Assembly (NCBI GenBank): GCA_029834535.1 | Contig: JAQMWT010000679.1 | Coordinates: 1-64,000, forward strand | Length of the DNA stretch: 64,000 nucleotides | Reading direction: 5' to 3' | From: Chrysophaeum taylorii | Taxonomy: Eukaryota > Sar > Pelagophyceae > Pelagomonadales > Pelagomonadaceae | Shown: positions 5,434 through 58,393 of the stretch, one piece after another | How the letters are laid out: each line of letters opens with the position of its first letter | Position numbering within the stretch: the first letter of the stretch is position 1 | Program-made: the position numbers and the translations under genes | Notes under the pieces: generated by a model | The model's input: the letters and a program-made list of their open reading frames with translations, nothing else | Told to the model about the DNA's origin: nothing | Databases searched by the model: none

Positions 5434-5478
5434 ACGGTTGGTCTGCAGGACTCAACGCGGACGGCAAAGCTTCGCCGC

Positions 5479-21499: not shown

Positions 21500-21594
21500 T
21501 CACACGACACGTACAAAAAATTGTGGCAAAAGAAGGTAGGGCCAGGGCTAGTTTGCTAGTTTAACGACGTTGCGGTCACTAGGGTTAGGCATCT

Positions 21595-23898: not shown

Positions 23899-23915
23899 CG
23901 GGAGAAGAAGACGAG

Positions 23916-27548: not shown

Positions 27549-27563
27549 TGGGCGTGAAAGTAG

Positions 27564-29636: not shown

Positions 29637-29701
29637 AATAGCTCGAGCCTTGTTGGGTAACTAACTTTTGTTGTATACCTCATTGATGGCGGGCCAGGCC
29701 G

Positions 29702-34336: not shown

Positions 34337-35464
34337 TCAGTAGTGTTCGTGGCGACTTTCGCCTGCTGGTCGGTCGCTTTCGGCGAGGATATCCAGATAG
34401 GCGGCTGGGAGCATAAGGAATTTGTCGATTTTCGAGACGTAGGCACGCTTGCGGAAATTGTCGTACTCGTTCTCGACAATCTTGTCGAGGATGGCCTTGT
34501 ACACGCGGAGGGACGACGCGACGGCGAGGCGCGCTTCCGGCGCCAGCATAGGAATACCAGTCCTGGCCTTTTCGTAGTAATGCTTGGCTCGTTCGATCTC
34601 GTAGTTGAGGAGATTGACGTAGTTTTGGTCGACGATGCCGTCGAAGATTTGCTGCTCGCTCACGCCAAACTTGTGGAGGTCATCGAGCGGCAGGTAGATG
34701 CGTCCACGAAGCGCGTCCTCGCCGACGTCGCGGAGGATGTTGGTGATCTGGAAGGCGATGCCGAGCGCCAGCGCGGGCTCGCGCGCCTCTTCGAGCGTGT
34801 AGCCGTTCGACGTCCCGAGCACGGGAAGCGTCATGAGACCGACGGTGCCGGCGACGCGGTAGCAGTACACCTCGAGGTCCTCCCACGTGTTGTAGCGACT
34901 TTGGTAAAATTCGTGCCCCGGCGTGTCCATCAACATCCCCTTGATCATGTCCTTATACGGCACGATGTTGAGTTCCGGGTAGCGTCGCTTCGCGTCTGCC
35001 AACGCGAGGTCGAGGCTGTCGGTCGGCTCGCCCTGCCAAATCTTATCGAGGCGCGCCTCCCACTTTTCAAGATCCTCCGCCATTCGCTCGGCGCCAAGCA
35101 TCGTCGCGAGCGGCGAGTCAACGATGTCGTCGGTGCGCCGACACCACACGTAAATAGCCCATACGGCCGTCTTTTTCGCCTCGCTGAAGAATGTCGTCCC
35201 AAAGTAAAACGTTTTCGAGAAGATCTTGGTAATCTCCCCGCATCGTCGGTACGCATCGCGCAGTTCCTTCTCATATCTCAGAGACCGTCGTCGCTCATCC
35301 TGCTGAGGGGCTATCTGCTCGTCGGGAGACGACGCTATCGACAGCCGGAACGAAGGTCGTCGTCGGACGCTCGCGCCACAAGACCAAGATTCTTGGACCG
35401 GCGTCCACGCGCCGCACGACGCAATGGCACCAAGCAACACCACGCTCCTCCGTCGCGTCGACAT
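34337..35464 (-). CDS. PSY: Phytoene synthase, plastid-targeted
   Basis: A 375-residue protein that condenses two geranylgeranyl diphosphates to phytoene, the first committed step of carotenoid synthesis, at the plastid membrane. Both Asp-rich prenyl-diphosphate sites are present: RRTDDIVD (about residues 108-115) and NILRDVGED (about 242-250). YCYRVAGTVGLM is also typical. The N-terminus (STRRRSVVLLGAIASCGAWTP) reads as a signal peptide ending in an Ala-aromatic context like the ASAFAP motif of red secondary plastids, followed by a transit-like Arg/Ser-rich stretch. The start is the ATG at 35464. Intronless. The neighbours are repeats and gene-poor DNA, with no pathway partners nearby. Confidence 0.95.
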   Translation of the reverse strand: MSTRRRSVVLLGAIASCGAWTPVQESWSCGASVRRRPSFRLSIASSPDEQIAPQQDERRRSLRYEKELRDAYRRCGEITKIFSKTFYFGTTFFSEAKKTAVWAIYVWCRRTDDIVDSPLATMLGAERMAEDLEKWEARLDKIWQGEPTDSLDLALADAKRRYPELNIVPYKDMIKGMLMDTPGHEFYQSRYNTWEDLEVYCYRVAGTVGLMTLPVLGTSNGYTLEEAREPALALGIAFQITNILRDVGEDALRGRIYLPLDDLHKFGVSEQQIFDGIVDQNYVNLLNYEIERAKHYYEKARTGIPMLAPEARLAVASSLRVYKAILDKIVENEYDNFRKRAYVSKIDKFLMLPAAYLDILAESDRPAGESRHEHY

Positions 35465-38400
35465 CAAACACCGCGTCGGAGACCGCTGTGCTTATCGAGA
35501 AGCGACGGGCACGCGTCTTCAACCAGCTGAGTGCAACGAATCTAGTCAGCCTGACGTACGCTTACCCTTTCCATAACTGAATCACCTAAATAATCCGATT
35601 CAACGCAGCAACCATCTGCTGCCCTATATACCTTCAACTTTGAAGTTGAGGGGCTACTTACTGGTGTGTTCCAGGTCTTTTTTTTTCGTTCTCGCAAGAA
35701 GTGCAGTGCACTCGAGTGCACCGTTGCCCCAGGTTATCATGTCTGCCAAAGGGGGGGAAAGGGATTCACTAAAAAATCCCCCTAGTTGCGCGTGCTCGCC
35801 ACCGAAAAAACGCTCGGCGCCATGCATGGCGACCATGCGTCGTCGCACGCTCCCGGCGAGATGACCCAGCGCGTCTGCGGCTCTTTCTTGGAGAGGAGAA
35901 TATCCCATTGGCGGCGGCCCCGCTCGACGGTCGCGGCGTAGTTTTGCTCAGAGAACCTCCACTTGCCTGGGGTATTAAACAACGCAAACAAAAAGCAAAA
36001 GGATCATAATTTTGCGAGACAAGTAAGGCGTGCCCAAAAGGTGAGGGTAGCAATGCCGGTCCTGGTGTGTGCGAGTGCCCGGGGCTATATATACCCCTGT
36101 GGTGCCGTCTTAGGTTATAGTCTCAGCGAGAGCCGTTGAGTGCTGGTGCTTTTACGCCGCGTTTGATAAGGGCGGGGTTATCCTCGTCGTCGCTTGCACG
36201 CGGTGTTGGAAGTGGATACGGCCAGCTTGCCTAGAAACCCGGCCTAAATGAGCCAGCTGGTCGAGTTTACCTCGCAGTGGGCGCTCCCGGAGGAGCTACT
36301 GGGCCGATTCATGCCCCCGACTTCGCCGGCGATTATGGCGCCGTTGTTGGCTGCGTAGGTTGGCACCTATTCGCCTCCCGGGCGGGCCGGTCGGCAGCCG
36401 GAACGTTCGCAGTGGGACGGGGTATGGCCGGGGGGCGAAGACGGAAGGTTATCGACGAGTTGGTTGTCAGTCACATCGCGGTCTCCTCGTCGCATGGCGA
36501 CAAGCTTGATGGTCACTCTCCGCCGACCGACCTTTCGGCGCTCCTCGTCTACAGGCCCGTGATTCCGGACTGGCTCCTGTCGGTCCGGCCTGGCTCCCAT
36601 GCTCGGGAGAGGTCTGAAGTTAGTTAGTTAGTTAGTTGGCTGCGTTATGGACTCGGACCCCATGGGTAAAAAAAAAGCCTCGACTTAAAAAGTAACGGCT
36701 ATTGTGCCAGTCGCTTCCGCAACGCTGCGCGTACCACCACTTCCCACTAACCTGGCATGGGTTCTTCTCTGACGTCGCGGCGTTGTTTTTACGTAGTAGG
36801 ATTGATGCAACGCCAGTAGGAAGCTACAGCGAGCAGAACGTACACCTCAGACGGTCGAGTGCGATGCTCCTTCGTGGATGACGTCCCCCGGGCAAACGCC
36901 CACTTTTCTGAATGCACACTTTTGTTCTTCGTCACTCGATATTCGTGGGTGCCCGCCTGTTTTACATCAGCTTTATCCTGGCGAAGTACCTGGTGCGGTG
37001 CCACGGCCCGGTCGAGGCTTTATTATTCTCATTATTATGGTTTGCAACTCAGTATTATACCGACCAACTGTCAGTGGCAGCTGGTGCTTCGTCTTTGCGG
37101 CCTCGTTTTTCGCCCCAGACGAATGAACTGAGGCGGTTCATTTAGCCTCTCCTGCCCGGGATTGTCCTCTTCTGCGCCCGCGGATCCCAGGTCGACTCCG
37201 GGGACATCCGTGGCACCCCACCGACACCTTCTTGTTCTGCTGTATCGCTTCGGCGACGGGTTTGCCCTGCGACCATCGCTGATGGATTTTCTAGCAGCAG
37301 CGTGCTCGGACGGTCGGCAAAGTCCGCGGATATCCATCGCAAGCTGATTCGCTCCCGTGCGAGGTTTGTTCGAGCGAGGTTTGTTCGACGGTTCCTGGCG
37401 AAGTTTGTTTGACAGGTCCTGGCGGTCCGGACGAGGCCAATTGTCACAAAGGAGCGGCCTGCGATTTTCATCTTTGACAATCCCGAACGGCGAGCTTATA
37501 ATTTGGGGCAGAACCGCAGGCCTTCGGTCAGTTCACGGTGACGCTCGACGATCGCGAGTTCAGGGGGCGGTCCTGCTTGAATAGGCCGGTTTTCGACCAT
37601 GTTTCTCCCGCGCGAAAAGGGAACTCCGTATGAACGAGAATGCAGCCACTCGATCCAGAGACACTCTGCAAATTCCAGATGCCAACGAAGAGCTGGTACT
37701 TCCTCGCTCAAGACCGTGGCGAATGGCGATAGATCACCAACGCGCCCTAAATTTCCCTTTTATACCCCTCGTATGAGTGCCCTGCGATGCTGATCACGCA
37801 CGCCGCGGCGCTGGGATAAGCCTGCGCCCCATGCATTGGCTGGTCTCTATTTTGTTCCTTTGTTTGTTCGTTCGCTCTCTCCCGCGAAAGCGAATTCCTT
37901 AAGAACGAAAGTACATCCATTCGATCCATAGGGTCACCCATTTCCCTGTAGTGGCGTCTCGCTATCACTTTTCGAATAATGTTCGATGGTGGCGATCCAT
38001 CCGGCGTGGTGGTCTTCCGACAGAGTTTCTATCTCTTGCACATTGAACTCGCCCGACTCCCCGCTGTCGTTCAATACTTTCGCTGGTGCATCGACGTTGC
38101 CTTAAGCCACGCACTCGCATTCTACCGCATTCTTCCGTTTTTTTCACCTCGGCCTTGAGCTGGGCGAGGGCCTGGCGTGCGTAGCGACTGAGACCGAGAG
38201 TCGTCCGCGAAATCGCCATGGGCGGTGGACGACCCTGGATTGAGCTCGAACAACCAGCTGCAAGAATACCGTTCGGCCGTGGGTTGGCCCGCAAACGGCC
38301 CGTGGTGGAATATCTTGTCACCCTAATAAGAATTTCGGCTATGTTAGATACCACGATGTGCGTAGATGATAATGTGTGGCCCGAAAAAGACTGGCGCCGA

Positions 38401-40021: not shown

Positions 40022-41266
40022 CTATCCGAGCTGCTTGCGCTCGCCAGGATTCGCGACGAAGGCGCGGAGCGTGTCCGTCGTGATTTTGGGGATTTCGGCG
40101 ACGTAGTAGGCGCCGTTATCGGGGATGTCGAGCACGACGACGGTGGGCTCGTCGGCACTGGCGGCGAGGTCGACGAGGCTACGGATGCGGCCGACCGTAG
40201 GATCGGATGCCGTTGTGGCATAAAAGAAGATGGTGTCCGCATCATTTTCCGCCTCGAGCGCGACAGCCTTGAGGGCGTCGACGCAGCGCGTTTGGACGTC
40301 GGGGTCGCACAACTCGCAGAGAACGACGAGAGCCTTGGCTTCGTTGATATCTTTGCCTTTGCAGGAGATGGTCGACGCGACGTCGGCATAGGGCTTTGGC
40401 TTCCAGCCGTTCGGGAAGGTCTTGATGCCGTCGGGGTCGGCGACGTTGGCGCGAGCCTCGGTAGTAATCGTCTCGCGCTTTCCGTCGACCTCCGGGCCGA
40501 GAAGGACGAGAGTGGGGATTCCGGCGACGTCGTAGGCCTTCGAAAGCGCCTCCTTGGCGTCGCGGGCCTCGAAGGGTAACGCGAGCCACGGCATCTCCGC
40601 GTAGTACTCCTCGAACGCTTCGGCGCTCTTGTCGCTCGACGCGAAGACGAGTTCGAAGTTGGCGTCCTCGACCTCCTTGAGCTTGTTGTAAAATGTCGCG
40701 AGCTGCGGCGTGAAGCCGCGGCACGGCGGGCACCAGTGCGCCGAAAAATACACGAGGAGATGTTTCCCGGCGAGCGACGCGGTCCGCACGGGGCCGGCCT
40801 TGCCGCGCAGCTCGGGGACCGCCGCGAGGATCTCGACGACAGACTTTGGCCTCCACGGGAATCCCGGGCGATCCCCGCTCACTCCCTCGCGCGCATCCTT
40901 GGTGATGAGCTCGCCCGTCGCGCCGTCGACCAGCACGAGCGTCGGAATCCCGCGAACCCCGTACTTGCTCGACAACGCGCTCTTGAGCTCGCGCTCCTCG
41001 AACGGCAACGCGACCCACGGCATCTCGTCCTTGTACTCGTTGAACGAGGCCTCGTCCCTGTCCGAGGATACGAACACGATCTCGAACTTCTTCGCATCCT
41101 TGATCTCCGTGTAGAACTTGGCGAGCTGCGGCGTGAACCCGCGGCACGGACCGCACCAGTGCGCGCTGAAATACAGGCCGACCACCTCCTTGCCTTGCAG
41201 CACCTTGCTTGTGGGTTCTACCTCGCCCGACCTCGTCACCAGCTTGGACCCAACGAGCGCTTCCAT
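40022..41266 (-). CDS. Nucleoredoxin (two thioredoxin-like domains)
   Basis: A 414-residue thiol oxidoreductase. Domain 1 has HWCGPCRGFTPQL near residue 37 and domain 2 has HWCPPCRGFTPQL near residue 178. Each is followed by the nucleoredoxin-type ...FVSSDRDEASFNEY / FASSDKSAEAFEEYY segment, a cis-Pro loop (GIPTLVLV, GIPTLVLL) and a GWKPK/FPWRPK turn. A third, diverged domain without active cysteines follows. The family reduces disulphides in cytosolic or nuclear clients. No targeting signal is visible. The ATG at 41266 is divergent from the PAP/fibrillin gene with 151 bp between starts, so they probably share regulatory DNA. Intronless. Confidence 0.9.
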   Translation of the reverse strand: MEALVGSKLVTRSGEVEPTSKVLQGKEVVGLYFSAHWCGPCRGFTPQLAKFYTEIKDAKKFEIVFVSSDRDEASFNEYKDEMPWVALPFEERELKSALSSKYGVRGIPTLVLVDGATGELITKDAREGVSGDRPGFPWRPKSVVEILAAVPELRGKAGPVRTASLAGKHLLVYFSAHWCPPCRGFTPQLATFYNKLKEVEDANFELVFASSDKSAEAFEEYYAEMPWLALPFEARDAKEALSKAYDVAGIPTLVLLGPEVDGKRETITTEARANVADPDGIKTFPNGWKPKPYADVASTISCKGKDINEAKALVVLCELCDPDVQTRCVDALKAVALEAENDADTIFFYATTASDPTVGRIRSLVDLAASADEPTVVVLDIPDNGAYYVAEIPKITTDTLRAFVANPGERKQLG

Positions 41267-41417
41267 GTCGTCCGTCCTCTTCTCTTGTGCTTCTTATCGT
41301 CTCGTCTCTGGACCTTCCGACAGATAAGGACTAAGGGGAAGCGGAAGAGAAGGTTCGTCGAGACAGGGGAAAGTATTCAATCAGTCCCCTTACTTACCCT
41401 CGAAGATCATAAAGATC

Positions 41418-42221
41418 ATGATCTCGAAGATCCTGATCTTGGCTTCTTGTGTCAGCGCCTTTTGCGTAACGCGCGATGACCGCCAGAAGCGAGTCGTCGG
41501 CCCGCGCGCAACCGCCATCGACGCGGAGACGACGTTGCTAAGGGTCCTGGGGGATGGACGCGTTTCGCTGTCGTCGAGCGAGGAGGCCCTCGTTGCTCAG
41601 TGTCTCGCGGCGCTGCCCGCGTCGACGGCGACCGTCGAGGCGCTCGACGGCACCTGGAGACTCCTCTATACGAGCAAGTCCAACTTCGACGCCAAGAATC
41701 CTCTCGGGCGACGCGTCGACGGCACGGCCCCGGGTATCGAGGGTCTGTTTGCCGCGGCGTTTGGCGACGACGACGACGACGACGACTCGAGGAGGAGTAG
41801 CAGTAGCAGCAGTCCTATCCAGCGCGCACTCACGTCCATCGAGCTAGTTCGGATCGAGCAGGTCATCGACCTCGCGGGCCCGGCCCCCCGCGTCGACCAG
41901 CTCGTCGCCGTCAACGAGGACCTGGGCCTCCGGCTCTCGGCCGCTGCAAGCTTCGACGAGACGAGTGGTCGCATCGATTTCACCTTCGACCAGGCCTACT
42001 TCACCGTCTTCGGGGCGCGCGTCCCTTACCCCGTGCCCTTTCGCCTCCTGGGGGACGAAGCCAAAGGCTGGCTCGACACCTCCTTCGTCTCGCAAAATCT
42101 CCGCGTCTCGCGCGGCAACAAGGGGACCACATTCATCCTTTCGCGGCCGCCTTATTCCTCTCCTCTAGGGGGCAAAGGCGTCGGCGTCGGCGTCGGCGAC
42201 GACCCACCCTCGTCCGCGTAG
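41418..42221 (+). CDS. PAP/fibrillin (plastid lipid-associated) protein
   Basis: A 267-residue protein with a plastid lipid-associated domain: LDGTWRLLYTSKSNFD opens it, VDLAGPAPRVDQLVAV-type beta strands follow, and the end has WLDTSFVSQNLRVSRGNKGTTFIL, the family's conserved closing strand. Fibrillins bind lipids at thylakoids and plastoglobules. The N-terminus MISKILILASCVSAFCV is a short signal peptide with SAF at the cleavage point, the bipartite plastid signal of red secondary plastids. An Asp run and Ser run (about residues 117-133) sit in a loop. Its last 70 coding bases overlap the end of Dph2 on the other strand. Confidence 0.85.
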   Translation: MISKILILASCVSAFCVTRDDRQKRVVGPRATAIDAETTLLRVLGDGRVSLSSSEEALVAQCLAALPASTATVEALDGTWRLLYTSKSNFDAKNPLGRRVDGTAPGIEGLFAAAFGDDDDDDDSRRSSSSSSPIQRALTSIELVRIEQVIDLAGPAPRVDQLVAVNEDLGLRLSAAASFDETSGRIDFTFDQAYFTVFGARVPYPVPFRLLGDEAKGWLDTSFVSQNLRVSRGNKGTTFILSRPPYSSPLGGKGVGVGVGDDPPSSA

Positions 42222-43558
42222 CCGCTCGCGATGCCGTCGCGGCCCTCGACCGCGCGGCCGGGCGGCGTGTCGCCGACTCGCGGGTCGAGACCCCGCCACT
42301 CGCGCTGCCGGAGGAAGGCGATCGCGTCCGTCTGGGCCACGACCAGCGGTCCATCGTCGTACGCGAGGTCGATGCGCGGTGGTTTGGTGACTTGCCGTCT
42401 CTTGTCGTCGAGTGACGCCTCCGCGAGATTGAACGTCGGCACGTCCTCGTCCACCGCCGCGGGGGGGTCATCCTCCGCCCCCTCCCCAGAGAGGAGGGCG
42501 TCTCGCAAATGATTCGAGTAAAAGGGCCGTCGGTCGTTGTCATCCTGCGGCAACCAGGGCTGGGCGCCGAGCGCGACGCGCATCTCGTGGGGCGAGAGGA
42601 CGGGGACGTTGGATTCGCGTCCCAGCGCGGACAGCACGGCGGCGTCGGCGCCGACGACCACGAACGCCTCACACTCGCCAAAATTGGCGAGCTTGGGGGG
42701 CGTCGGATCGCAGAGCGCTAGCGTGTAGGGCGAGCGGCCGGCCGCCCGCAAGTCGGCCTCGCAGGCTCGGGCGACGCGCGCGGCGAGCTCGATGCGGCCA
42801 GCCGAGGCGACGACTACGCCCCATCGCGCGGCCCTCGACGCACGCTGGAGCTGGTGCTGCCGCCGCGCCAGCAAGCGCGTTGGGGCGTCGACGCTCGTCT
42901 TGCGCGCGGCGGGGTCGTAGCCCGCGAACGCGGCGCACGCGCCGCATCGCATCGCGACCTCCGTCGACGCCGCTCCGACAAAGACAACGCGACTCGCTCG
43001 CAGCCGCGGCTCGTCGTACTCCGGCGCGACCAGGCCCCCGACGCTCAGCCCGGGCAGGCCCCCGACAAGCCCCCCGACGTGGTCGGGCAATCGCGCGACC
43101 GTCGCTCCTATGCCCAGTCTCGCCTCGAGAGCGCGAGCGACGCCCCCCGCGCTCCCGCGGTACAAAGGATCGTAAAGCACGAGAACCGGGGCGTCGCCGC
43201 CCGGCAGCGCGGCAACGACCGCCTCGGCCGCACCGTCCACGTCCATATTCGCCTCCTCGGCGAGCACGTACAGCACGGGCGGGCAGCCCTCGGGCGGCGC
43301 CGCGAGGCAGTCGGCACCGTAATGCACGATAAGTTCGGCCTCCACGTGCGCGGCGCCGATGGCGTCTACAACATTGTTCCGCATGCAGTCCCCTAGGACG
43401 TAAAACTTCACCTCGGGGACGCGTTCCTCCAGATCCCACACCACTCTCGGAGCCTCGCTCATCATCGAATCCGGAAACTGCAGCGCAACACGCCGCGCAC
43501 CCAACTCGACGATGGTCGCCACCGTTCGGTCGTATTCGAGCCTTTCGCCACCTTCCAT
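42152..43558 (-). CDS. DPH2: Diphthamide biosynthesis protein 2
   Basis: A 468-residue Dph2-type protein, partner of Dph1 in the first step of diphthamide formation on elongation factor 2 (3-amino-3-carboxypropyl transfer from SAM). Seen: the N-terminal ALQFPDSMMSEAPRVVWDL, FYVLGDCMRNNVVDAIGAAH with the first-domain cysteine, ELIVHYGADCLA, YDPLYRGSAG, and LANFGECEAFVVVGADA in the last domain with the Cys in the expected place, then SPHEMRVALG. The C-terminus is low complexity (SPTPTPTPLPPRGEE). The start is the ATG at 43558. It converges with the PAP/fibrillin gene and overlaps its coding end by 70 bp. Confidence 0.88.
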   Translation of the reverse strand: MEGGERLEYDRTVATIVELGARRVALQFPDSMMSEAPRVVWDLEERVPEVKFYVLGDCMRNNVVDAIGAAHVEAELIVHYGADCLAAPPEGCPPVLYVLAEEANMDVDGAAEAVVAALPGGDAPVLVLYDPLYRGSAGGVARALEARLGIGATVARLPDHVGGLVGGLPGLSVGGLVAPEYDEPRLRASRVVFVGAASTEVAMRCGACAAFAGYDPAARKTSVDAPTRLLARRQHQLQRASRAARWGVVVASAGRIELAARVARACEADLRAAGRSPYTLALCDPTPPKLANFGECEAFVVVGADAAVLSALGRESNVPVLSPHEMRVALGAQPWLPQDDNDRRPFYSNHLRDALLSGEGAEDDPPAAVDEDVPTFNLAEASLDDKRRQVTKPPRIDLAYDDGPLVVAQTDAIAFLRQREWRGLDPRVGDTPPGRAVEGRDGIASGYADEGGSSPTPTPTPLPPRGEE

Positions 43559-44058
43559 TCCTCTAGATATCACAAGACGGCACGACGTACCATCGTCGCG
43601 TTCACCGCGCTGACCTTCTACAAAAAAGCTCTATGTTTTTAACCCAAACCCTCGAGCTTAGCAGACGACCTCTTAACGCACAGTAAAACAAACAAACAAA
43701 CAAACAAACAAACAAACAAACAAACAAACAAACAAACAAACAAACGAACAAAGGGCATCTCGACGTGCTCCCCGCTGACCCTCTCTCTGGCCAGCCATCC
43801 CCAATCATACTGTTTATGCAAGGGGATGCCTTTTTTTTTGGGCGGTTGCGACGTCCTAACCGCAGCAAACAGAAATTCGGGCGTACGACTTGGAGAAGTG
43901 TGGTGTCGGCGGGTGATCTTATCTCTGCAGTCTGGAAGGAGGCCGGTGCTTCTGCCGAAGTTCGCGAATGTGGGGCGAACGGGGACTTGGCCTGAGAAGA
44001 AACACCTCGACAAAGTCCTTCAACCCAGATCATGCCGCCTTGAGCTCTCCGTCGTTCT
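43559..44058. other. Gene-free stretch with (CAAA)n
   Basis: Lies between Dph2 and the AOX 3' end. It contains a long (ACAA)n tract at 43686-43752 and no convincing gene. Confidence 0.6.
43686..43752. repeat. (CAAA)n microsatellite
   Basis: About 16 tandem tetranucleotide units, one with a G. Confidence 0.95.
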
Positions 44059-46213: not shown

Positions 46214-49200
46214 CTAGGGTTGCATTTCTTCGGGGGTCATGCCGAGGGAGTCGGTGGCGGCTTGGTCGGCACCGTGGGCGATGAGGACGTCGACCATGTC
46301 GGGGCGTTCGTACTCGTAAGCCCACCAAAGGGGGCCGCGGCCGTCCTTGGATCGCATGTGGACGACGGCGGGGGCGTACTTGATCCAGGACTGGAGGTCA
46401 TCGATGCGGCCGCTGGAAATGATGGACCACATGTGGGTTGTGTCCTCGTTGTTGGACCACTGGGCCCACTCCGCCTGTCGGGCCCTGATAGCGCGCTCTG
46501 TCGCGCGCTCGGCGGCAGCAGCGTCGGCCTCGTGGTCGTACTCGGCGAAGCCATCGTCGTCGTCCTCCTCCTCGTCGTCGTCGTCGTCGTCGCCGTCGTA
46601 ATCCGGGATCTCAAAGTAGTCTCGTGGCTGGTCGAAGTCCGCCTCGGAGGTCGCCTTACCCTCCATGCGCGCCATGTAGGAATCGACATACTTGCTCGCC
46701 GACGCGTCGCGCTTCTTGTTGAAGTCCTCGAGTTGCGCGAAGTTGATGCGGCGGTCGATAAGGGGTTTGAGCGCAGGCGGGTACTGACCGACGCAATACC
46801 ACGAGCCCGGTGCGTCGCAGACGCGGTTGGCGGGGTCGGCGACCCACTTCTTGGAGGATTTGGAGACACGCTGGACCTTGTAGATGCGGACCTTGTTGAA
46901 CCTCGAGGTGTAGACTTCGCGGAACAACGAGGGGTCGACCCTGACGCCAGGGCGTTGGTTGTTGGCGTGGAGTTTGTAGAGCAGCGATTCGGCCATCATG
47001 GGGGTCGGCGTGCCGTGGCGATCGACGAAGCCAAAGCGCGCGCACGTTGGATCGTGTGGGCAAATGTCGCGAAAGACCGAGTTGCCGATGCGGGCCATGT
47101 GGGGGGACTTGGCGAGGTCGTCGCCGCCGCCGCCCGTCCAGACGAGAACGTAATCCGCCAGGTGGCGCACGATGCGGTGCGCCTGCTTCTCGGGCGACGT
47201 GAGGCACCGGCCGAGCGTCGCGATGTGCTCGTGGTTCCACGTGTTGCCGTCGGCGATCGTCGTCCGGTTCGCAATGCCGTTGATCTGGTAGCCGTAATCC
47301 CACCACGCCATGACGCGCGCGTCCTCGGGCGTGTTGTCGCGCAGCCACCAGTACGCCTCGCGATAGTCGTCGACCATGACTGGTGTGCCGTCGCGGAGGT
47401 GTGCGCGGAACATGATCGACGGCTGCGACATGCCCTCGGCGAGCGACCACGCGTAATCGCTGAACTGCTTGTAGTAGTGAACCGCGGCGGCCAGCGCGGC
47501 CGCGGCGACGACCGTCCGCGCGATGCGCAGCTTGGGCGACCGGACGGCGTCCACGACGGCGTCCATCGACTCGCGCACGAGATCACCCGCGTTCTCGATC
47601 GACCGCACCAGCGACGCGCCGCCTTTGGCACCGCCTTTGCGCGACGACCCCGACGGCCGGCTCCCGCCCGCCCGCCGGCTCGCGCCGCCCTTTCTCCTCG
47701 ACTCGGCCACGGCGGCATCGAGGATCTTGTCCTCGTCGCCGTCGGCTTTGGGTGCCCCCGAAGAGCCCGGGCCGCCGCCGTTGCTCTTCTTGCCGCCACC
47801 GCCGCCCCCCACCTTTTTCGACTTCTTAGCGCTCGCCGGCGCCGCCGCCGCCTGAGACGCCGCCGCCGACGAGGACGACGCGACCTCGCCGTCACCTCGT
47901 CGATGCGCACTGGACCCTCCTCCAGCGACTCCGAGGAGGGCGTCGACGAGAGGGGGCGCCGTCGCGTCGACGGCAAAGCCCAACGCGACGCCCGCGAGCG
48001 CCGACGCGACGGGTCCGAGGAAAATTATGAGTCGGACCATCTTGGACGAGAAGAAGTAGGCGAAGCACGCGTACAACGATATGAAGAACTTGGCGTCGGT
48101 GCGCTGGAAGAGCAACGTCAGCACGAGGCCGACGGGGGCGGCGTACGTCGTGTAGTGGAGGTAGTGCCAGTACGCGTTGGCCGACGCCGGCTGGTGCTCG
48201 GCGACGCTGTCGACCAGCGGGTTGCCGGTGCGCGTGTGTTTCACGAACAGACCTCGGACGCGCGACGAGATGGGGCCAAAGTACCCCATCGAGAACAATC
48301 CCGAGCACACCGCCAGCCCCACGGCACCCGCGGCCCCGAAGATCTGCGCGCGGAGCTTCCATGCGGCGAATCCCGTCACCTTTGCCCGGCGGCGCAGGAT
48401 CTCGCTCGCCTCGACGAGTTGCATCCCCACGAACACCGCGCCAGGCGCGAGCTGCTCGAGGCTGCGGAGCGGCGCGAGCCCCACAACCGGAACGCGGGTC
48501 GCACCGAGCGTCCCGATCGCGTACCACAGTGAATACGCCCGGTGGAGCGACGACGAGTATCGTCCGAGGCAGACCAACAGCGCCGCGTGCGCCCCGATCA
48601 TGTTGAGCACAAACACGAATCCACCCCACGCCGCGACCATGTTGACGTATGCTAACCCCGCCAAGGCTCCCAACGGCCACGACTTGGGACTCCGGAGCGA
48701 GCGGCACCACAACCAAAAGGTCAAACACATCGCCGTCATCGCGACGCTCTCGTTGTCGTAGCCGCCGCCCACGCTCCGCATCAGATGCGCCGGGATGACG
48801 GCCATGATGAGCATCGCCGCGACCGCCGCGTTGGCGCTTCTCGAGCACTCGTACGTCAGCAACCCCAGCAAAAACGTCGCGCTCACACCAAACCACACGG
48901 GCACGTACACGCACACGTCGTTTAGACTCATTTCGTAACCAAACCAGTCGTTTAGAATGCGCCACGACAACACCGACGTGATCTGCATCCCCGGGTAGAT
49001 TGTCGTCCCGACGGGACGCCCCAACGGATACCAAGATTTGTAGTCGAACCATCGAAAAAAGCTCGTCCATCCGTTGGCGGCGAGGTACTCGGTTGCTCGG
49101 TAATTGAACCAAGGGTCAAACTCGTGGATCACGTTGCCGTAGATGCGGACAGCGAACATCCGGATGTGGTACGCATTGTGCGCGGCGAGCAGTACGAGCA

Positions 49201-49240
49201 ACACTCGCACCACATGACCTGCGTACTCCCCTCCTGCCAT
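46214..49240 (-). CDS. STT3: Oligosaccharyltransferase catalytic subunit STT3 with C-terminal ankyrin-like tail
   Basis: A 1008-residue ER membrane protein that transfers the lipid-linked glycan to Asn in nascent proteins. N-terminal VIHEFDPWFNYRATEYL holds the first acidic site. A dozen or so membrane segments follow to about residue 600, with a Ser/Lys/Gly-rich loop around 440-540. WWDYGYQI (about 643-650) is the acceptor-site WWDYG motif, then GNTWNHEHIATLG. Usual STT3 is 700-850 residues. Here an acidic linker leads to about 90 extra residues that read as ankyrin repeats (DGRGPLWWAYEYERPDMVDV, LIAHGADQAATDSLGMTPEE). The tail would be lumenal if topology is normal. Divergent from methionine synthase with 187 bp between starts. 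Intronless. Confidence 0.92.
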   Translation of the reverse strand: MAGGEYAGHVVRVLLVLLAAHNAYHIRMFAVRIYGNVIHEFDPWFNYRATEYLAANGWTSFFRWFDYKSWYPLGRPVGTTIYPGMQITSVLSWRILNDWFGYEMSLNDVCVYVPVWFGVSATFLLGLLTYECSRSANAAVAAMLIMAVIPAHLMRSVGGGYDNESVAMTAMCLTFWLWCRSLRSPKSWPLGALAGLAYVNMVAAWGGFVFVLNMIGAHAALLVCLGRYSSSLHRAYSLWYAIGTLGATRVPVVGLAPLRSLEQLAPGAVFVGMQLVEASEILRRRAKVTGFAAWKLRAQIFGAAGAVGLAVCSGLFSMGYFGPISSRVRGLFVKHTRTGNPLVDSVAEHQPASANAYWHYLHYTTYAAPVGLVLTLLFQRTDAKFFISLYACFAYFFSSKMVRLIIFLGPVASALAGVALGFAVDATAPPLVDALLGVAGGGSSAHRRGDGEVASSSSAAASQAAAAPASAKKSKKVGGGGGGKKSNGGGPGSSGAPKADGDEDKILDAAVAESRRKGGASRRAGGSRPSGSSRKGGAKGGASLVRSIENAGDLVRESMDAVVDAVRSPKLRIARTVVAAAALAAAVHYYKQFSDYAWSLAEGMSQPSIMFRAHLRDGTPVMVDDYREAYWWLRDNTPEDARVMAWWDYGYQINGIANRTTIADGNTWNHEHIATLGRCLTSPEKQAHRIVRHLADYVLVWTGGGGDDLAKSPHMARIGNSVFRDICPHDPTCARFGFVDRHGTPTPMMAESLLYKLHANNQRPGVRVDPSLFREVYTSRFNKVRIYKVQRVSKSSKKWVADPANRVCDAPGSWYCVGQYPPALKPLIDRRINFAQLEDFNKKRDASASKYVDSYMARMEGKATSEADFDQPRDYFEIPDYDGDDDDDDEEEDDDDGFAEYDHEADAAAAERATERAIRARQAEWAQWSNNEDTTHMWSIISSGRIDDLQSWIKYAPAVVHMRSKDGRGPLWWAYEYERPDMVDVLIAHGADQAATDSLGMTPEEMQP

Positions 49241-49427
49241 TGCCTATTACAATTCGCCGCCGTCGGTCACCATACGCCTCGCTGTCTTCGCTCGACTTCG
49301 ACTAAAAAAATAAAATAAAACCCCCGCCAAAGTCTGTCCCAAACCCTACCTGCGTCGACGCTTTTTTGTGTGACTACACACACGCTGACGCACCTACGGA
49401 AAGGGATCTCCAAAAGGGCCTCCGGCG

Positions 49428-52400
49428 ATGGTGTCCAAAAGCCGCCACCCACGCCATGTCTTTCAATGGGAACGCGACTTTGTCGAAAAGCCGCAGACCG
49501 AGCCGCCGCTGCCACCGACCAAGGTGGCGAACAGTCACGTGCCCAACGCCTACTCCTACAGCGGCCTCTCACATCCGTATATTCTGAAAGCGCGCGAGAA
49601 GCGACCATCCCTCGAAACCTCGCAGTGGAAAGACCTCTCGACCGAGTGGGCGCAGCCGAAGGACTTGCATCCTGAGGGGTTCCCATACTTTGTCCGCGGT
49701 CGCGACAGCGTGCGCACCTACATTACCGAGCTCTTCCAGACGCGCATCGCGATGTACGACGGCGCCATGGGCACCATGATCCAGAAGCACAAGCTCGAAG
49801 AAGACGCGTTCCGCGGCGATCGGTTTAAAGACTACCACATGCTCATCAAAGGTAACAACGACCTGCTATCGATCACGCAGCCGCACATCATCCGCGACAT
49901 CTACGAGAAGTACCTGGTGGAGGGTGGTTCGCAACTCATCGGCACCAACACCTTTTCAAGCACGACCATCGCTCAGGCCGACTACGACATGCAATCGCTC
50001 ATCTACGAGCTCAACTACGACTCCGCGCGACTTGCACGCGAAGCATGTGACAAGGTTACTGCCCAAGATCCGACAAAGCCGCGCTTCGTTGTCGGCGCTA
50101 TTGGTGCGTCTAATGGAGTCCACAGCTTGATTGACACTCATCATTGTAGGTCCCACGAACCGCACGGCATCGATCTCGCCTGACGTCAACGACCCGACGG
50201 CGCGCAACTGCACGTTCGACGAGCTCGTGGAGGCCTATTACGAGCAGTGCGTCAGTCTTGTCGACGGCGGTGCGGATATCCTCATGGTCGAGACGATCTT
50301 CGACACGCTCAACGCGAAAGCTGCCGTCTTTGCCGTGAATGAGTACCTTGAACACGCTAGTGTTGACATCCCGCTTTTTATCTCGGGTACCCTCGTCGAC
50401 CAGAGTGGACGCACGCTCTCGGGTCAGACCGGCGAGGCGTTTTACGTGAGCGTCCGCCACGCCAAGCCGATTTGTGTCGGTCTCAACTGTGCTCTCGGTG
50501 CTGCGGCAATGACACCCTTCCTCAAGCGGCTAGCGGATTGTGCTGAGTGCTTCGTGCACGTGTACTCGAACGCCGGGCTCCCTAACGCGATGGGCGGCTA
50601 CGACGACACCCCAGCGGATATGGCGCGCGAGAACGTCGTCTTCGCTGAGAACGGTTGGGTCAACATGATCGGTGGGTGCTGCGGCTCCACGCCCCCTCAC
50701 ATCGCGTCGATACAATCCGCGGTTGCACACCTCAAACCTCGCCCTCTACCGACGCTCAAGGCGCCTAAGATGTGGCTCTCGGGCCTGGAGGACTTTGTGG
50801 TCGAAGGCACCTACAACAACTGTGGTCTACCTTTTGTGAACGTCGGCGAGCGGTGCAACATTGCTGGGTCGCGCAAGTTTAAGCGCCTTGTCATGGAGGG
50901 CAAGTTTGCCGAGGCGATGGACATCGCGAAGGACCAGGTCGAAGCCGGCGCTCACGTCATAGACGTCAATGTTGACGACGGCATGCTGGACGGCCTCGTG
51001 GCTATGCAGAAGTTCATCAAGATGGCGGTGACCGAGCCTGACGTTGCCAAGGTGCCGTTTATGATTGACTCGTCCAAGTTCGAGATTGTGGAAGCCGGGC
51101 TCAAGTGGTGCCAAGGCAAGCCAATCGTCAACAGTATTTCTCTCAAGGTCGGCGAAGAGAAGTTCAAGGAACATGCGATCTGTCTGCGCAAGCACGGTGC
51201 AGCTGTGGTTGTCATGGCGTTCGATGAGCACGGCCAGGCCGCATCGAAGGAGGACAAGATCCGCATCTGCAAACGGAGCTACGATATGCTCGTTAGCGAG
51301 CCCATCTGTTTCCCACCCGAGGACATTGTGTTCGATCCCAATATCCTCACGATTGGCACGGGTATCGAGGAGCACAACAGCTACGGCATCGACTTCATCC
51401 ATGCTGTTCGTGAGATCAAGGAGGTGTGCCCCTGGGCCAAGATCAGCGGCGGCGTCTCGAACCTGTCTTTCGGTTTCCGCGGCGTTAACATTATTCGCGA
51501 GTCGATTCACGCTGTTTTTCTGCACCGTGCCTGCGTGGAGTCTGGAATGGATATGGGCATCGTCAACGCCAAGGAGATGCTCGCTATCGAAGATCTTGAC
51601 GAGGACCTTCGCGACATGTGCACTGACGCTGTCCTAAACCTTACTGGTAGGGCGACAGAGGAGCTTACAGAACGCTCGCAGTGGGAGCAAGATGTCAAAG
51701 TTGCCAAGAAAGAAGGACGCCCGCTTCCACCCAAGCCTCGTCACTACAAGCGACAGCCCCGCAAAGTTTTCTCGTGGGAACGTGACTTTGTCGAAAAGCC
51801 GCAGTCGACGCCGCCGCTGCCGCCGACCAAGGTGGCGAAAAATCACGTGCCCAACGCCTACTCCTACAGCGGCCTCTCACATCCATACGTTCTCAAGGCA
51901 CGCGAGAAGCGACCATCCCTCGAAACCTCCCAGTGGAACGACCTCTCGACCGAGTGGGCGCAGCCGAAGGACTTGTATCCTGAGGGGTTCCCATACTTTG
52001 TCCGCGGTCGCGACAGCGTGCGCACCTACATTACCGAGCTCTTCCAGACGCGCATCGCGATGTACGACGGCGCCATGGGCACCATGATCCAGAAGCACAA
52101 GCTCGAAGAAGACGCGTTCCGCGGCGATCGGTTTAAAGACTACCACATGCTCATCAAAGGTAACAACGACCTGCTATCGATCACGCAGCCGCACATCATC
52201 CGTGACATCTACGAGAAATACCTGGTGGAGGGTGGTTCGCAACTCATCGGCACCAACACCTTTTCGAGCACCACCATCGCTCAGGCCGACTACGACATGC
52301 AATCGCTCATCTACGAGCTCAACTACGACTCCGCGCGACTTGCACGCGAAGCATGTGACAAGGTTACTGCCCAAGATCCGACAAAGCCGCGCTTCGTTGT

Positions 52401-55400
52401 CGGCGCTATTGGTGCGTCTAATGGAGTCCACAGCTTGATTGACACTCATCATTGTAGGTCCCACGAACCGCACGGCATCGATCTCGCCTGACGTCAACGA
52501 CCCGACGGCGCGCAACTGCACGTTCGACGAGCTCGTGGAGGCCTATTACGAGCAGTGCGTCAGTCTTGTCGACGGCGGTGCGGATATCCTCATGGTCGAG
52601 ACGATCTTCGACACGCTCAACGCGAAAGCTGCCGTCTTTGCCGTGAATGAGTACCTTGAACACGCTAGTGTTGACATCCCGCTTTTTATCTCGGGTACCC
52701 TCGTCGACCAGAGTGGACGCACGCTCTCGGGTCAGACCGGCGAGGCGTTTTACGTGAGCGTCCGCCACGTCAAGCCGATTTGTGTCGGTCTCAACTGTGC
52801 TCTCGGTGCTGCGGCAATGACACCTTTCCTCAAGCGGCTAGCAGATTGTGCTGAATGCTTCGTGCACGTGTACTCGAACGCCGGGCTCCCTAACGCGATG
52901 GGCGGCTATGACGACACCCCAGCGGATATGGCGCGCGAGAACGTCGTCTTCGCTGAGAACGGTTGGGTCAACATGATCGGTGGGTGCTGCGGCTCCACGC
53001 CCCCTCACATCGCGGCGATTCAAGCCGCGGTTGCGCACCTTAAACCTCGCCCTCTACCGACGCTCAAGGCGCCTAAGATGTGGCTCTCGGGCCTGGAGGA
53101 CTTTGTGGTCGAAGGCAGCTATAACAACTGTGGTCTACCTTTTGTGAACGTCGGCGAGCGGTGCAACATTGCCGGGTCGCGTAAGTTCAAGCGTTTATTG
53201 ATGGAGGGCAAGTTTGCCGAGGCGATGGACATCGCGAAGGACCAGGTCGAAGCCGGCGCTCACGTCATCGACGTCAATGTTGATGACGGCATGCTGGACG
53301 GCCTCATGGCCATGCAGAAGTTCATCAAGATGGCAGTGACCGAGCCTGACGTTGCCAAGGTGCCGTTTATGATTGACTCGTCCAAGTTCGAGATTGTGGA
53401 GGCCGGGCTCAAGTGGTGCCAAGGCAAACCAATCGTCAACAGTATTTCCCTCAAGGTCGGCGAAGAGAAGTTCAAGGAACATGCGACCTGTCTGCGCAAG
53501 CACGGCGCTGCTGTAGTTGTGATGGCGTTCGACGAGTATGGCCAGGCGGCATCGAAGGAGGACAAGATCCGCATCTGCAAACGGAGCTACGATATGCTCG
53601 TTGGCGAGCCCATCTGTTTCCCACCCGAGGACATCGTGTTCGATCCCAATATCCTCACGATTGGCACGGGTATCGAGGAGCACAACAGCTATGGCATCGA
53701 CTTCATCCACGCCGTTCGTGAGATCAAGGAGGTATGCCCCTGGGCCAAGATCAGCGGCGGCGTCTCGAACTTGTCATTCGGCTTCCGTGGAGCGAATATT
53801 GTTCGCGAGTCGATCCACGCCGTCTTCTTGCATCACGCTTGCTTGGAGTCGGGTATGGACATGGGCATCGTCAATGCTAAGGAGGTGCGCATTGTTCGAG
53901 CAATCACCAAGGTTTGATTCGCAGATGCTTGGCCTCACCGACTTGGACGAGGACATGCGCGACATGTGTGAGGACGCAGTCCTTAATAGGACATCAGAGG
54001 CAACCGAGGCCCTTACGGAACGATCGGCGTGGGAGCAAGAAGCGAGAATCGCCCAAAAAGAAGGGAAGCCTGTGCCACGCAAACCGCGCTATTGCAAGAA
54101 GCAGAAACGCAAGATGTTTTCCTGGGAACGCGACTTTGTCGAAAAGCCGCAGACCGAGCCGCCGCTGCCACCGACCAAGGTGGCGAAAAATCACGTGCCC
54201 AACGCCTACTCCTACAGCGGCCTCTCACATCCATACGTTCTCAAGGCACGCGAGAAGCGACCATCCCTCGAAACCTCCCAGTGGAACGACCTCTCGACCG
54301 AGTGGGCGCAGCCGAAGGACTTGTATCCTGAGGGGTTCCCATACTTTGTCCGCGGTCGCGACAGCGTGCGCACCTACATTACCGAGCTCTTCCAGACGCG
54401 CATCGCGATGTACGACGGCGCCATGGGCACCATGATCCAGAAGCACAAGCTCGAAGAAGACGCGTTCCGCGGCGATCGGTTTAAAGACTACCACATGCTC
54501 ATCAAAGGTAACAACGACCTGCTATCGATCACGCAGCCGCACATCATCCGCGACATCTACGAGAAATACCTGGTGGAGGGTGGTTCGCAACTCATCGGCA
54601 CCAACACCTTTTCGAGCACCACCATCGCTCAGGCCGACTACGACATGCAATCGCTCATCTACGAGCTCAACTACGACTCCGCGCGACTTGCACGCGAAGC
54701 ATGTGACAAGGTTACTGCCCAAGATCCGACAAAGCCGCGCTTCGTTGTCGGCGCTATTGGTGCGTCTAATGGAGTCCACAGCTTGATTGACACTCATCAT
54801 TGTAGGTCCCACGAACCGCACGGCATCGATCTCGCCTGACGTCAACGACCCGACGGCGCGCAACTGCACGTTCGACGAGCTCGTGGAGGCCTATTACGAG
54901 CAGTGCGTCAGTCTTGTCGACGGCGGTGCGGATATCCTCATGGTCGAGACGATCTTCGACACGCTCAACGCGAAAGCTGCCGTCTTTGCCGTGAATGAGT
55001 ACCTTGAACACGCTAGTGTTGACATCCCGCTTTTTATCTCGGGTACCCTCGTCGACCAGAGTGGACGCACGCTCTCGGGTCAGACCGGCGAGGCGTTTTA
55101 CGTGAGCGTCCGCCACGCCAAGCCGATTTGTGTCGGTCTCAACTGTGCTCTCGGTGCTGCGGCAATGACGCCTTTCCTCAAGCGGCTAGCGGATTGTGCT
55201 GAGTGCTTCGTGCACGTGTACTCGAACGCCGGGCTCCCTAACGCGATGGGCGGCTACGACGACACCCCAGCGGATATGGCGCGCGAGAACGTCGTCTTCG
55301 CTGAGAACGGTTGGGTCAACATGATCGGTGGGTGCTGCGGCTCCACGCCCCCTCACATCGCGTCGATACAATCCGCGGTTGCACACCTCAAGCCCCGCCC

Positions 55401-58393
55401 TCTACCGACTCTCAAGGCGCCGAAGATGTGGCTCTCGGGCCTCGAAGATTTTGTCGTCGAAGGCACCTACAACAACTGTGGTCTACCTTTCGTGAACGTC
55501 GGTGAGCGGTGCAACATTGCTGGGTCGCGCAAGTTTAAGCGCCTTGTCATGGAGGGCAAGTTTGCCGAGGCGATGGACATCGCGAAGGACCAGGTCGAAG
55601 CCGGCGCTCACGTCATCGACGTCAATGTTGACGACGGCATGCTGGACGGCCTCGTGGCCATGCAGAAGTTCATCAAGATGGCGGTGACCGAACCCGACGT
55701 TGCCAAGGTGCCGTTTATGATTGACTCGTCCAAGTTCGAGATTGTGGAGGCCGGGCTCAAGTGGTGCCAAGGCAAACCAATCGTCAACAGCATTTCTCTC
55801 AAGGTCGGCGAAGAGAAGTTCAAGGAACACGCGATCTGCTTGCGCAAGCACGGCGCTGCTGTAGTTGTGATGGCGTTCGACGAGTATGGCCAGGCGGCGT
55901 CGAAGGAGGACAAGATCCGCATCTGCAAACGGAGCTACGATATGCTCGTTAGCGAGCCCATCTGTTTCCCACCCGAGGACATCGTGTTCGATCCCAATAT
56001 CCTCACTATTGGCACGGGTATCGAGGAGCACAACAGCTACGGCATCGACTTCATCCATGCCGTTCGTGAGATCAAGGAGGTGTGCCCTTGGGCCAAGATC
56101 AGCGGCGGCGTCTCGAACTTGTCGTTCGGTTTTCGTGGCGTTAACATTATTCGCGAGTCAATCCACGCCGTATTCTTGCATCACGCTTGTGTCGACTCCG
56201 GTATGGATATGGGCATTGTCAACGCCAAGGAGATGCTCGCCGTCTCCGAGATCCCGTCTCAACTCAGGGAAGTGTGCACCGACGCCGTGCTCAACCTTCG
56301 CTCTGACGCAACCGAGCGGCTGTTGGCCGCGACCGAGGCGGAAAAAGAAGCGGCCGAGCGACGTAAGCGCGGCGAGACTGCGGGTGGTGCGGGCCCGTCG
56401 AAACCGACGACGTGGCGCGACATGCCGATTGAGGAACGATTGACTCACTCGCTCGTCAAGGGCATTTCAGAGTTTGTCGACCAAGACACCGAAGAGATGC
56501 GGGCTGCCATCGCCGAACGTGGTGGCAAAACCCTAGAGGTCATCGAGGGTCCTCTCATGAGCGGAATGAACGTGGTCGGTGACCTGTTCGGGTCGGGCAA
56601 AATGTTCTTGCCGCAAGTCATCAAGTCGGCGCGCGTCATGAAAAAGGCAGTCGCTTACCTGCTCCCTTTTATGGATACCGAGAAGCGAGAGGCAATGTTG
56701 GCGCAGGGTCTTGATCCTGATGCTGTCGACGATAACGACGACTCGCAGTATGCCGGCAAATTTCTTATTGCCACTGTAAAGGGCGATGTACACGACATCG
56801 GGAAAAACATTGTTGCCGTTGTGCTCGGCTGCAACAACTTCAAGGTTTATGACATTGGCGTCATGTGCGAATGCGAGAAGATACTCGAGGCAGCTAAGAA
56901 GTACAAGGTCGATGCAATTGGCCTCTCAGGGCTCATCACGCCGTCTCTCGACGAGATGGTCTTCGTTGCTAAGGAGATGTCCAAGGCAGGCTTCAACGTT
57001 CCACTGCTCATCGGCGGCGCGACCACCTCGAAGATGCACACGGCCGTCAAGATTTCGCCGATGTACGCGTCTGACGAGCATCCAGTGATCCACGTGCTCG
57101 ACGCCTCGCGCGCGGTTACGGTCGTCTCGAATCTGCTCAACGAACAGGAGAAGCCCGACTTCGTTGCAGACCTCGCCGACGAGTATGCCGAACTCCGGGA
57201 CGAGTACGCTCGCGCGGTGTCCTTATTTACGAATTTTTCGAAACACAGCGCCGCCCTAAAAACCAAAGGCACCGCGCTTGCATGTTCTGCGTTTTGTGCA
57301 AGGAGCCTCACTTGATCACGTGGTCATGCGTAGTTGTTGATCATCACGTCTTCGTAGGTACTACGCGTCGCTCGAGGACCGGAAGTTTCTGCCCTTGGAA
57401 CAAGCCAAAAAGAAGCGGCACGAGCTCGACCCTGCCAAGTTGGCGCCCTCGCCAAAAAAGCCGCTCGGGGCGCATGCGGTGACCTACGATATTCCGAGCG
57501 TTGTGCCCTTTATCGATTGGAACCCGTTTTTCCAGACGTGGGAACTTCGCGGGCGCTACCCAAACCGTGGTTACCCGAAGATTTTCAACGACGAAACGGT
57601 TGGTACCGAGGCCAAGAGACTCTTCGACGACGCTCAGAAAATGCTCAAGGAGATCATCGACGAACAGAAGCTCAAACTTCGCGGCGTCTACGGCCTCTAC
57701 GCAGCGCAGCGCTCCGCCGGTGGCGAAGACGTGGACGTGTGGGTCTCGGACGCGGCGCGCAATGCCGAGGAGCCGCCGGCGGCCACCTTCTGCATGCTCC
57801 GCCAGCAAGCAGAGATCGAGGGGGCGTCCACGTACTACTCCCAAGCTGATTTCATAGCGGCGCGCGGGGAAGGCACGGACTATCTCGGCATGTTCGCAGT
57901 CGCGTGTTTCGGCGCGGACGAGTGGGCGCTAAAATACGAATCCCAAAACGATGATTTCTCCAAGATCATGATGCAGGCCATCGCCGACCGCCTCGTCGAG
58001 GCGTGCGCCGAGGCACTGCACCGCGACATGCGCGTCGACCACTGGGGTTACGCCGCCCAGGAGGACCTCTCGCCAGATGACCTACTCAAAGTTAAGTACG
58101 ATGGGATCCGCCCCGCGCCCGGCTACCCGTCCCAGCCAGACCACACGGAGAAACGCACCATGTGGGACCTCATGCGTGTCGAAGAGCTAGCGGGCATCCA
58201 GCTCTCGGAGAGCCTCTCCATGATGCCGGCGTCCTCGGTTTCCGCTCTCGTCTTTGCCCACCCGGACTCCACGTACTTTGCCGTCGGCAAGGTTGAGAAG
58301 GACCAAGTCAAATCGTATGCCGAACGCAAAGGCCTTGATCTCCATCAAATGGAGCGATGGCTCAGCCCCATCCTCAACTACGAACGCAACTAA
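49428..58393 (+). CDS. METH: Cobalamin-dependent methionine synthase with three homocysteine/folate modules
   Basis: Six exons: 49428-50103, 50150-52411, 52458-53884, 53925-54759, 54806-57203, 57358-58393, all GT...AG, giving 8634 coding bases and 2877 residues (human MS 1265, E. coli MetH 1227). The protein has three copies of the homocysteine-binding plus methyltetrahydrofolate-binding half (starting at residues 14, 768 and 1522), then one cap, one cobalamin domain (GDVHDIGKN near 2392) and one SAM-dependent reactivation domain (from about 2533; [17 protein letters not shown]). Each module keeps the three zinc cysteines (C339, C402, C403 and equivalents), spaced 63 apart as in E. coli. The reading frame runs through both module junctions, and the linkers differ between junctions. 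Confidence 0.88.
49467..51774 (+). repeat. Methionine synthase module 1 (2308-bp repeat unit)
   Basis: Starts at TGGGAACGCGACTTTGTCG and contains the 46-nt intron 50104-50149. Homocysteine domain, folate domain, and a Lys-rich linker ([19 protein letters not shown]) joining module 2. Confidence 0.9.
51775..54122 (+). repeat. Methionine synthase module 2 (2348-bp repeat unit)
   Basis: Offset from module 1 by exactly 2308 bp. Contains the homologous 46-nt intron (52412-52457) and an additional 40-nt intron (53885-53924) after NAKE that modules 1 and 3 lack. This accounts for the 40-bp length difference. The linker to module 3 is [19 protein letters not shown]. Confidence 0.9.
54123..56240 (+). 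repeat. Methionine synthase module 3
   Basis: Third repeat, with intron 54760-54805. After NAKEMLAV it leaves the repeat and continues into the cap and cobalamin domains found once per protein. Confidence 0.88.

Follow-up and report, generated by a model that had tools for sequence, protein, structure and literature searches.

A predicted cobalamin-dependent methionine synthase with three Hcy:Fol halves and a single cobalamin arm in the alga Chrysophaeum taylorii

The locus and its gene model

The window analyzed here covers bases 1-64,000 of a contig (C679) that is 175,795 bases long, in a 70.8-Mb, 697-contig assembly, and carries on its forward strand a gene whose six exons join into one open frame spanning positions 49428-58393 (Table 1). 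The joined frame measures 8634 nt, equal to 2877 codons plus a stop codon, contains no internal stop, and reproduces exactly the length and the ends of the single spliced frame proposed earlier from the letters alone (hereafter the sequence-only reading). Each of the five introns follows the GT...AG rule. Considering these intron ends together with the homology to human MTR that their removal restores, we infer that the exons are spliced into one chain. The 46-nt intron A recurs in modules 1, 2, and 3 without any change of place, phase, or sequence, and its excision restores a conserved 11-residue stretch that aligns to GALGPTNKTLS of the human enzyme.

The predicted chain consists of three Hcy:Fol modules followed by a single Cap, a single Cob, and a single Act domain. 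Both repeat periods, from module 1 to 2 and from module 2 to 3, amount to exactly 754 codons with no net coding indel, and modules 2 and 3 match a 300-base reference stretch of module 1 at 92% and 94%, respectively, which excludes chance as the source of the repetition. The junctions between modules fall at about 51766 and 54114, within a few bases of the earlier estimates of about 51775 and 54123. The codon that hosts intron B (53885-53924) is intronless in modules 1 and 3; the presence of this intron in one repeat only is a case of gain or loss within a repeat.

Ahead of each Hcy domain stands a lead of ~84 residues, and the two inter-module junctions each carry their own basic linker, so that a Fol tail and the Hcy domain that follows it are separated by ~110 residues of linker plus lead. 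The ordinary Fol-Cap connection is found in module 3 only. A Pfam scan returned no match, and hence no extra domain, in the leads of modules 1 and 3 or in linker 1, and the module 3 lead lies outside the alignment to human MTR. Two candidate origins for these segments were rejected: the lead does not appear to be a domain used elsewhere in the genome, as the only fourth match outside the gene is at chance level (E 0.78), and a derivation of the linkers from the 5′ leader fails because the alignment of the upstream DNA to either linker is no better than that of shuffled sequences.

Several neighboring frames were labeled by eye. An STT3-like oligosaccharyltransferase frame of 1009 residues (46214-49243, reverse strand) lies head to head with the synthase gene, the two frames being less than 200 bases apart. 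Farther upstream, likewise on the reverse strand, are Dph2-like (42152-43630), double-thioredoxin nucleoredoxin-like (40022-41293), and phytoene synthase-like (34337-35491) frames, as well as retroelement-like frames with reverse-transcriptase-like and integrase-like stretches (19508-29660 and 2374-5451), the first of which occupies a region of lower GC and strong GC skew.

Table 1. Features of the predicted synthase gene, in window coordinates
Feature	Position	Strand	Details
Exon 1: start codon, lead 1, Hcy 1 front	49428-50103	+	lead 1 at 49458-49709; PF02574 match 49755-50120
Intron A, module 1	50104-50149	+	46 nt, GT-AG
Exon 2: Hcy 1 back, Fol 1, linker, lead 2, Hcy 2 front	50150-52411	+	2262 nt = 754 codons
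Fol (Pterin_bind) domain 1	50845-51567	+	170.8 bits
Basic linker, modules 1/2	51691-51765	+	unique; residues 740-764
Lead 2	51766-52017	+	residues 765-848
Intron A, module 2	52412-52457	+	46 nt
Exon 3: Hcy 2 back, Fol 2	52458-53884	+	
Fol domain 2	53153-53875	+	172.2 bits
Intron B, module 2 only	53885-53924	+	40 nt, GT-AG; at Fol tail
Exon 4: Fol 2 tail, linker, lead 3, Hcy 3 front	53925-54759	+	lead 3 at 54114-54365
Basic linker, modules 2/3	54039-54113	+	unique; residues 1494-1518
Intron A, module 3	54760-54805	+	46 nt
Exon 5: Hcy 3 back, Fol 3, Cap, Cob	54806-57203	+	
Fol domain 3	55501-56223	+	171.9 bits
Cap (B12-binding_2, PF02607)	56431-56661	+	one match; residues 758-834 of the 1359-aa piece
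Cob (B12-binding, PF02310)	56758-57042	+	sole match in assembly
Intron C, tail	57204-57357	+	154 nt
Exon 6: remaining tail, Act domain, stop codon	57358-58393	+	
Act (Met_synt_B12, PF02965)	57491-58333	+	355 bits

Domains and catalytic residues

In a six-frame profile search of the whole assembly, the Hcy and Fol profiles each match three times at this locus, in register. The Pfam scan was run on two pieces of the protein, namely module 1 and module 3 with the tail (1359 aa), module 2 being covered by the six-frame search. It identified S-methyl_trans and Pterin_bind in module 1 and the full series of S-methyl_trans, Pterin_bind, B12-binding_2, B12-binding, and Met_synt_B12 in module 3 and the tail, and found the MetE domains PF08267 and PF01717 in neither piece. 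These domain matches bear out the triplicated substrate half with single cobalamin and reactivation domains that had been read from the sequence.

The motifs follow the same division. The cobalamin-ligand motif GDVHDIGK, of the DxHxxG type, occurs once (residue 2393), as does the RPAPGY motif of the Act domain (RPAPGYP at residue 2784), and the zinc motifs GLNCALG (residues 336, 1090, and 1844) and GGCCGSTP (residues 400, 1154, and 1908) each occur three times. When mapped by alignment, the zinc residues Cys260, Cys323, and Cys324 and the folate residues Arg384, Asn470, Asp537, Asn579, Arg585, and Arg591 (human MTR numbering) are identical in all three modules, so that the earlier observation of three intact zinc sites, with three cysteines in each module, holds by motif and by mapping alike. 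Eight of these nine residues are named in the excerpted text of PMC13376404, Cys324 not being among those named there. The modules vary at 25 positions between 11 and 705, none of which coincides with the nine mapped zinc and folate residues.

By homology and by these residues, the predicted protein is a cobalamin-dependent methionine synthase (MetH/MTR), and as predicted it breaks the canonical five-domain MetH layout, with three Hcy:Fol halves per chain instead of one.

Age, selection, and gene conversion

The three modules differ from one another to an extent that changes steeply along their length. Between modules, the Hcy domains show dS of 0.03-0.05 and dN of at most 0.004, the Fol domains dS of 0.30-0.33 and dN of 0.005-0.018, and the Fol tails dS of 1.4-1.7; synonymous sites are saturated in linkers 1 and 2, each of 25 codons. 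Since the Fol domains have accumulated synonymous differences with hardly any amino-acid change, all three stations appear to have been kept.

The junction itself carries a signature of protein-level constraint. Over residues 700-764, which comprise the Fol tail and linker, 33% of bases differ between modules 1 and 2, with pS of 0.72 and pN of 0.23 in the predicted frame, whereas the two other frames give pS/pN of 0.32/0.35 and 0.29/0.31. Third positions differ at 34 of 65 sites compared with 31 of 130 for the other positions (p = 0.0001). For the 25 basic-linker codons alone, linker 1 against linker 2, the corresponding counts of 15/25 and 14/50 give a modest signal (p = 0.011), and a comparison of the linkers with the Fol-Cap stretch of module 3, where homology is not expected, gives no third-position excess (p = 0.39 and 1). 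Because the constraint is seen in the predicted frame and in neither of the others, the junction between modules seems to be kept as protein, which counts against routine termination of transcripts at module borders as well as against an assembly artefact. Together, these patterns indicate purifying selection on the three predicted modules and on linkers 1 and 2. Purifying selection together with gene conversion could also keep modules that serve in separate isoforms or whose upkeep only avoids harm.

At the other extreme, runs of identical bases centered on the Hcy domain, intron included, reach 497 (modules 1 and 2), 549 (1 and 3), and 566 bases (2 and 3). When the differences of each pair were scattered at random 10,000 times, a procedure that takes no account of variation in constraint among sites, no run of such length arose. 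Considering that the linkers are near saturation while the Hcy halves, with their intron, are nearly identical, the triplication is likely ancient and the front halves have likely been homogenized since by gene conversion.

Three other histories were rejected. A recent triplication is incompatible with the near-saturated synonymous differences in the linkers and Fol tails, only the front halves being alike; the growth of two modules into three by one recent unequal crossover would have left matching linkers, yet these differ at 33% of bases over residues 700-764; and separate tandem genes are ruled out by the lack of a stop between modules after intron removal and by the frame-specific linker constraint. 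The gene presents concerted evolution within one open frame, together with a tiny intron in one repeat only. Elsewhere in the assembly, light-harvesting genes give at least 84 matches (on C88, C390, C518, C539, and other contigs), many of equal score and several close together per contig, which suggests that they are also homogenized. These matches mark a photosynthetic alga. Of two light-harvesting proteins compared with solved structures, L022 comes closest to fucoxanthin chlorophyll a/c proteins, entries that are from diatoms (236 bits), and L016 gave weaker, mixed matches headed by a chain named LHCI-11 (122 bits), which makes an alga with chlorophyll c likely.

B12 use and other methionine enzymes

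In six-frame searches, which can overlook genes interrupted by introns or missing from the assembly, Met_synt_B12 and B12-binding each have a single match in the whole assembly, both in the gene described here, and no second MetH was found in the 70.8 Mb. The same searches returned no match in the assembly for the MetE N-domain (Meth_synt_1, PF08267) or for methylmalonyl-CoA mutase. Meth_synt_2 (PF01717) has one partial match, inside a polyketide-synthase-like frame. By labels assigned by eye, the frame around this MetE-like stretch (L015, G000:C320:131738-135283) is a polyketide-synthase-like hybrid: it also has a ketosynthase-like end, two carrier-like repeats that are nearly identical, and a part resembling a flavin monooxygenase.

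Further S-methyl_trans matches lie on C339 (L004, G000:C339:56595-60494) and, in part, on C489 (L008, G000:C489:1808-5035), and further Pterin_bind matches on C301 and C615. The frame on C339, of 590 residues, is likely a homocysteine S-methyltransferase that uses another methyl donor; the match on C489 is weak and partial.

Considering that the triplicated enzyme is the sole B12-dependent methionine synthase detected and that no MetE was found, we predict that the alga needs B12. With one Act match, one B12-binding match, no MetE N-domain, and no methylmalonyl-CoA mutase, its cobalamin appears to be directed to the synthase described here. The dependence stays a prediction because the enzyme on C339 may make methionine from another methyl donor.

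A proposed mechanism and its alternatives

MetH is a textbook example of an enzyme in which a single cofactor domain moves among the substrate domains. What is new here, relative to the layout of one half per chain, is the combination of three Hcy:Fol halves with a single cobalamin arm in one predicted chain. The account that we tentatively favor is that the single arm docks in turn at three equivalent Hcy:Fol stations of the 2877-residue chain. Three rigid halves on ~110-residue tethers would then stand ahead of one traveling arm, which would dock at whichever half is loaded, and methyl transfer could go on at the loaded station while another station releases product and rebinds substrate. 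The benefit would be more methionine per cobalamin in an apparently B12-dependent alga.

Loading or product release probably limits the turnover of E. coli MetH, and a multi-station layout would help if it is one of these steps that limits turnover. Reported turnover is 1542 per minute for the E. coli enzyme and 354 for the human one (PMC10567725), and a limited literature search found no kinetic figures for MetH product release. In human MTR, the N-half and C-half behave as independent, flexibly linked modules (PMC13376404); in Thermus MetH, Hcy:Fol behaves as a rigid body and the linkers are mobile (PMC10567725); and the cobalamin domain travels between the Hcy:Fol half, the cap, and the activation domain (PMC13376404; PMC10567725). 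Given this behavior of the human and Thermus domains, the addition of further rigid stations on flexible tethers is mechanically reasonable. The sequence-only reading had suggested that one cobalamin arm might serve three methyl-transfer stations: the three intact modules and the single arm are there, and service of all three by that arm makes a plausible leading mechanism. We infer that all modules are active, that the arm can extend to modules 1 and 2, and that the alga benefits.

If this account is true, the enzyme would allow a direct test of what limits flux, docking together with product release or else the chemistry at cobalamin, and it would represent a means by which a B12-dependent alga gains more methionine per B12, a matter of interest for ocean biology. 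A broader idea, which we consider possible, is that the stations have become uncoupled from the number of cofactors in an old, homogenized adaptation to B12 scarcity, the station count being set by cassettes or by in-frame skipping.

Could the repeats instead be a means of making shorter enzymes? An exon-cassette array, in which skipping across the identical intron-A sites gives one-, two-, and three-module forms and the ordinary 1369-residue form does most of the work, is the main alternative but in our judgment unlikely. Exon 2 matches exons 3 and 4 combined in length (2262 nt each), and the copies of intron A, alike in place, phase, and sequence, are flanked by identical coding DNA that would give seamless joins. 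Skipping exon 2, exons 3 and 4, or exons 2-4 leaves open frames of 2123, 2123, and 1369 residues, the last with the ordinary MetH layout. The protein may therefore exist in three lengths, and splicing that always skips modules 1 and 2, the outcome named in the sequence-only reading as one that would count against it, would keep the frame. Such in-frame skipping, however, is an automatic outcome of tandem duplication around a shared intron and thus weighs little as evidence; the skipping of exon 3 or exon 4 alone would break the frame; and junctions that are mostly skipped should lose constraint, whereas the linkers show it. Moreover, introns of 40-46 nt are usually recognized as introns, which disfavors the skipping of long exons.

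The remaining alternatives are less likely. One, which we rate as improbable, is that the tandem duplication is neutrally retained, upheld by gene conversion and unequal crossing-over, such that the number of modules drifts among strains with no kinetic gain. The strong homogenization of the modules is what such a process would leave, and light-harvesting genes of the same genome are also arrayed with equal scores, but three full modules persist despite saturated linkers, dN is low, and no module has decayed. It is also improbable, and slightly more so, that the extra modules act mainly in trans, passing methyl groups to or from the cobalamin arms of neighboring molecules, or serve as a substrate-binding reserve, as the sequence-only reading had also entertained. 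All nine mapped residues are kept in every module, and the human halves behave as independent modules (PMC13376404); against this, tethering puts the arm of the same chain nearest, no assembly interface is known, and leads 1 and 3 and linker 1 hold no extra Pfam domain. Finally, an assembly artefact, in which one module was multiplied or fragments were wrongly joined, is very improbable: identical runs of up to 566 bases could confuse short-read assembly, but the Fol sequence differs from copy to copy and the linker from junction to junction, the strongly divergent residues 700-764 of modules 1 and 2 stay in frame under frame-specific constraint, each unique linker joins a Fol domain to the next lead and Hcy domain in frame (the second after removal of intron B), and the contig continues to its full 175,795 bases. 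An error in module order would leave both inter-module joins standing, since each unique linker is preceded by Fol and followed by lead and Hcy.

Comparison with known systems

Human MTR (PDB 9ssp, 4ccz) is homologous to residues 84-1357 of the 1359-residue piece made of module 3 and the tail, with a score of 1497.8 bits, and shares with the algal protein the order of domains and the zinc, folate, and cobalamin-ligand motifs. The human enzyme, however, has one Hcy:Fol half (PMC13376404), in contrast to the three of the algal protein, each with its extra ~84-residue lead.

For bacterial MetH (Hcy-Fol-Cap-Cob-Act), 353 prokaryote stretches code for relatives, and we examined all of the best 80. 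The four blocks Hcy, Fol, Cap-Cob, and Act occur in this order in 80/80 loci, as in the algal gene, and a second Hcy:Fol module was found in none of these best 80 of 353; at least 2200 bases precede the Hcy block in 69 of the loci, and in the other 11 an upstream module could fall outside the sequence. Six of the 80 loci carry one or two distant Hcy-type stretches (26-28% identical) behind MetH: three from Pontiella or Pontiellaceae, two from Kiritimatiellales, and one from Lentisphaerae (L047, L051, L057, L070, L085, and L099). A fused second Hcy domain was considered and rejected for these, as a stop codon separates Act from the first such stretch, which lies in another frame, in 6/6; in three of them the stretch is within 15 bases of the Act match. 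The Hcy-type stretch is likely a separate gene. The expectation that known MetH proteins have one of each domain is in line with what the 80 bacterial loci show and with the architectures published for the human and Thermus enzymes (PMC13376404; PMC10567725).

Other lineages and the literature were covered more briefly. A survey of 19 haptophytes found metH in all of them, with no repeated modules mentioned in the excerpted text (PMC6557843). A search for a relative on viral contigs gave no match to the search patterns, and a limited literature search, by title or opening of the abstract, returned no report of a repeated Hcy:Fol half.

Two further enzyme systems offer instructive contrasts. 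MetE, too, produces methionine from homocysteine, and it likewise has a duplication in its ancestry, in this case to a double barrel (PMC539065). It uses no cobalamin, however, and is unrelated in sequence to the algal synthase. Polyketide and PUFA synthases bear tandem acyl-carrier repeats in one chain, which raise throughput. Those synthases repeat the carrier, whereas the algal synthase, as predicted, repeats the stations and has a single carrier.
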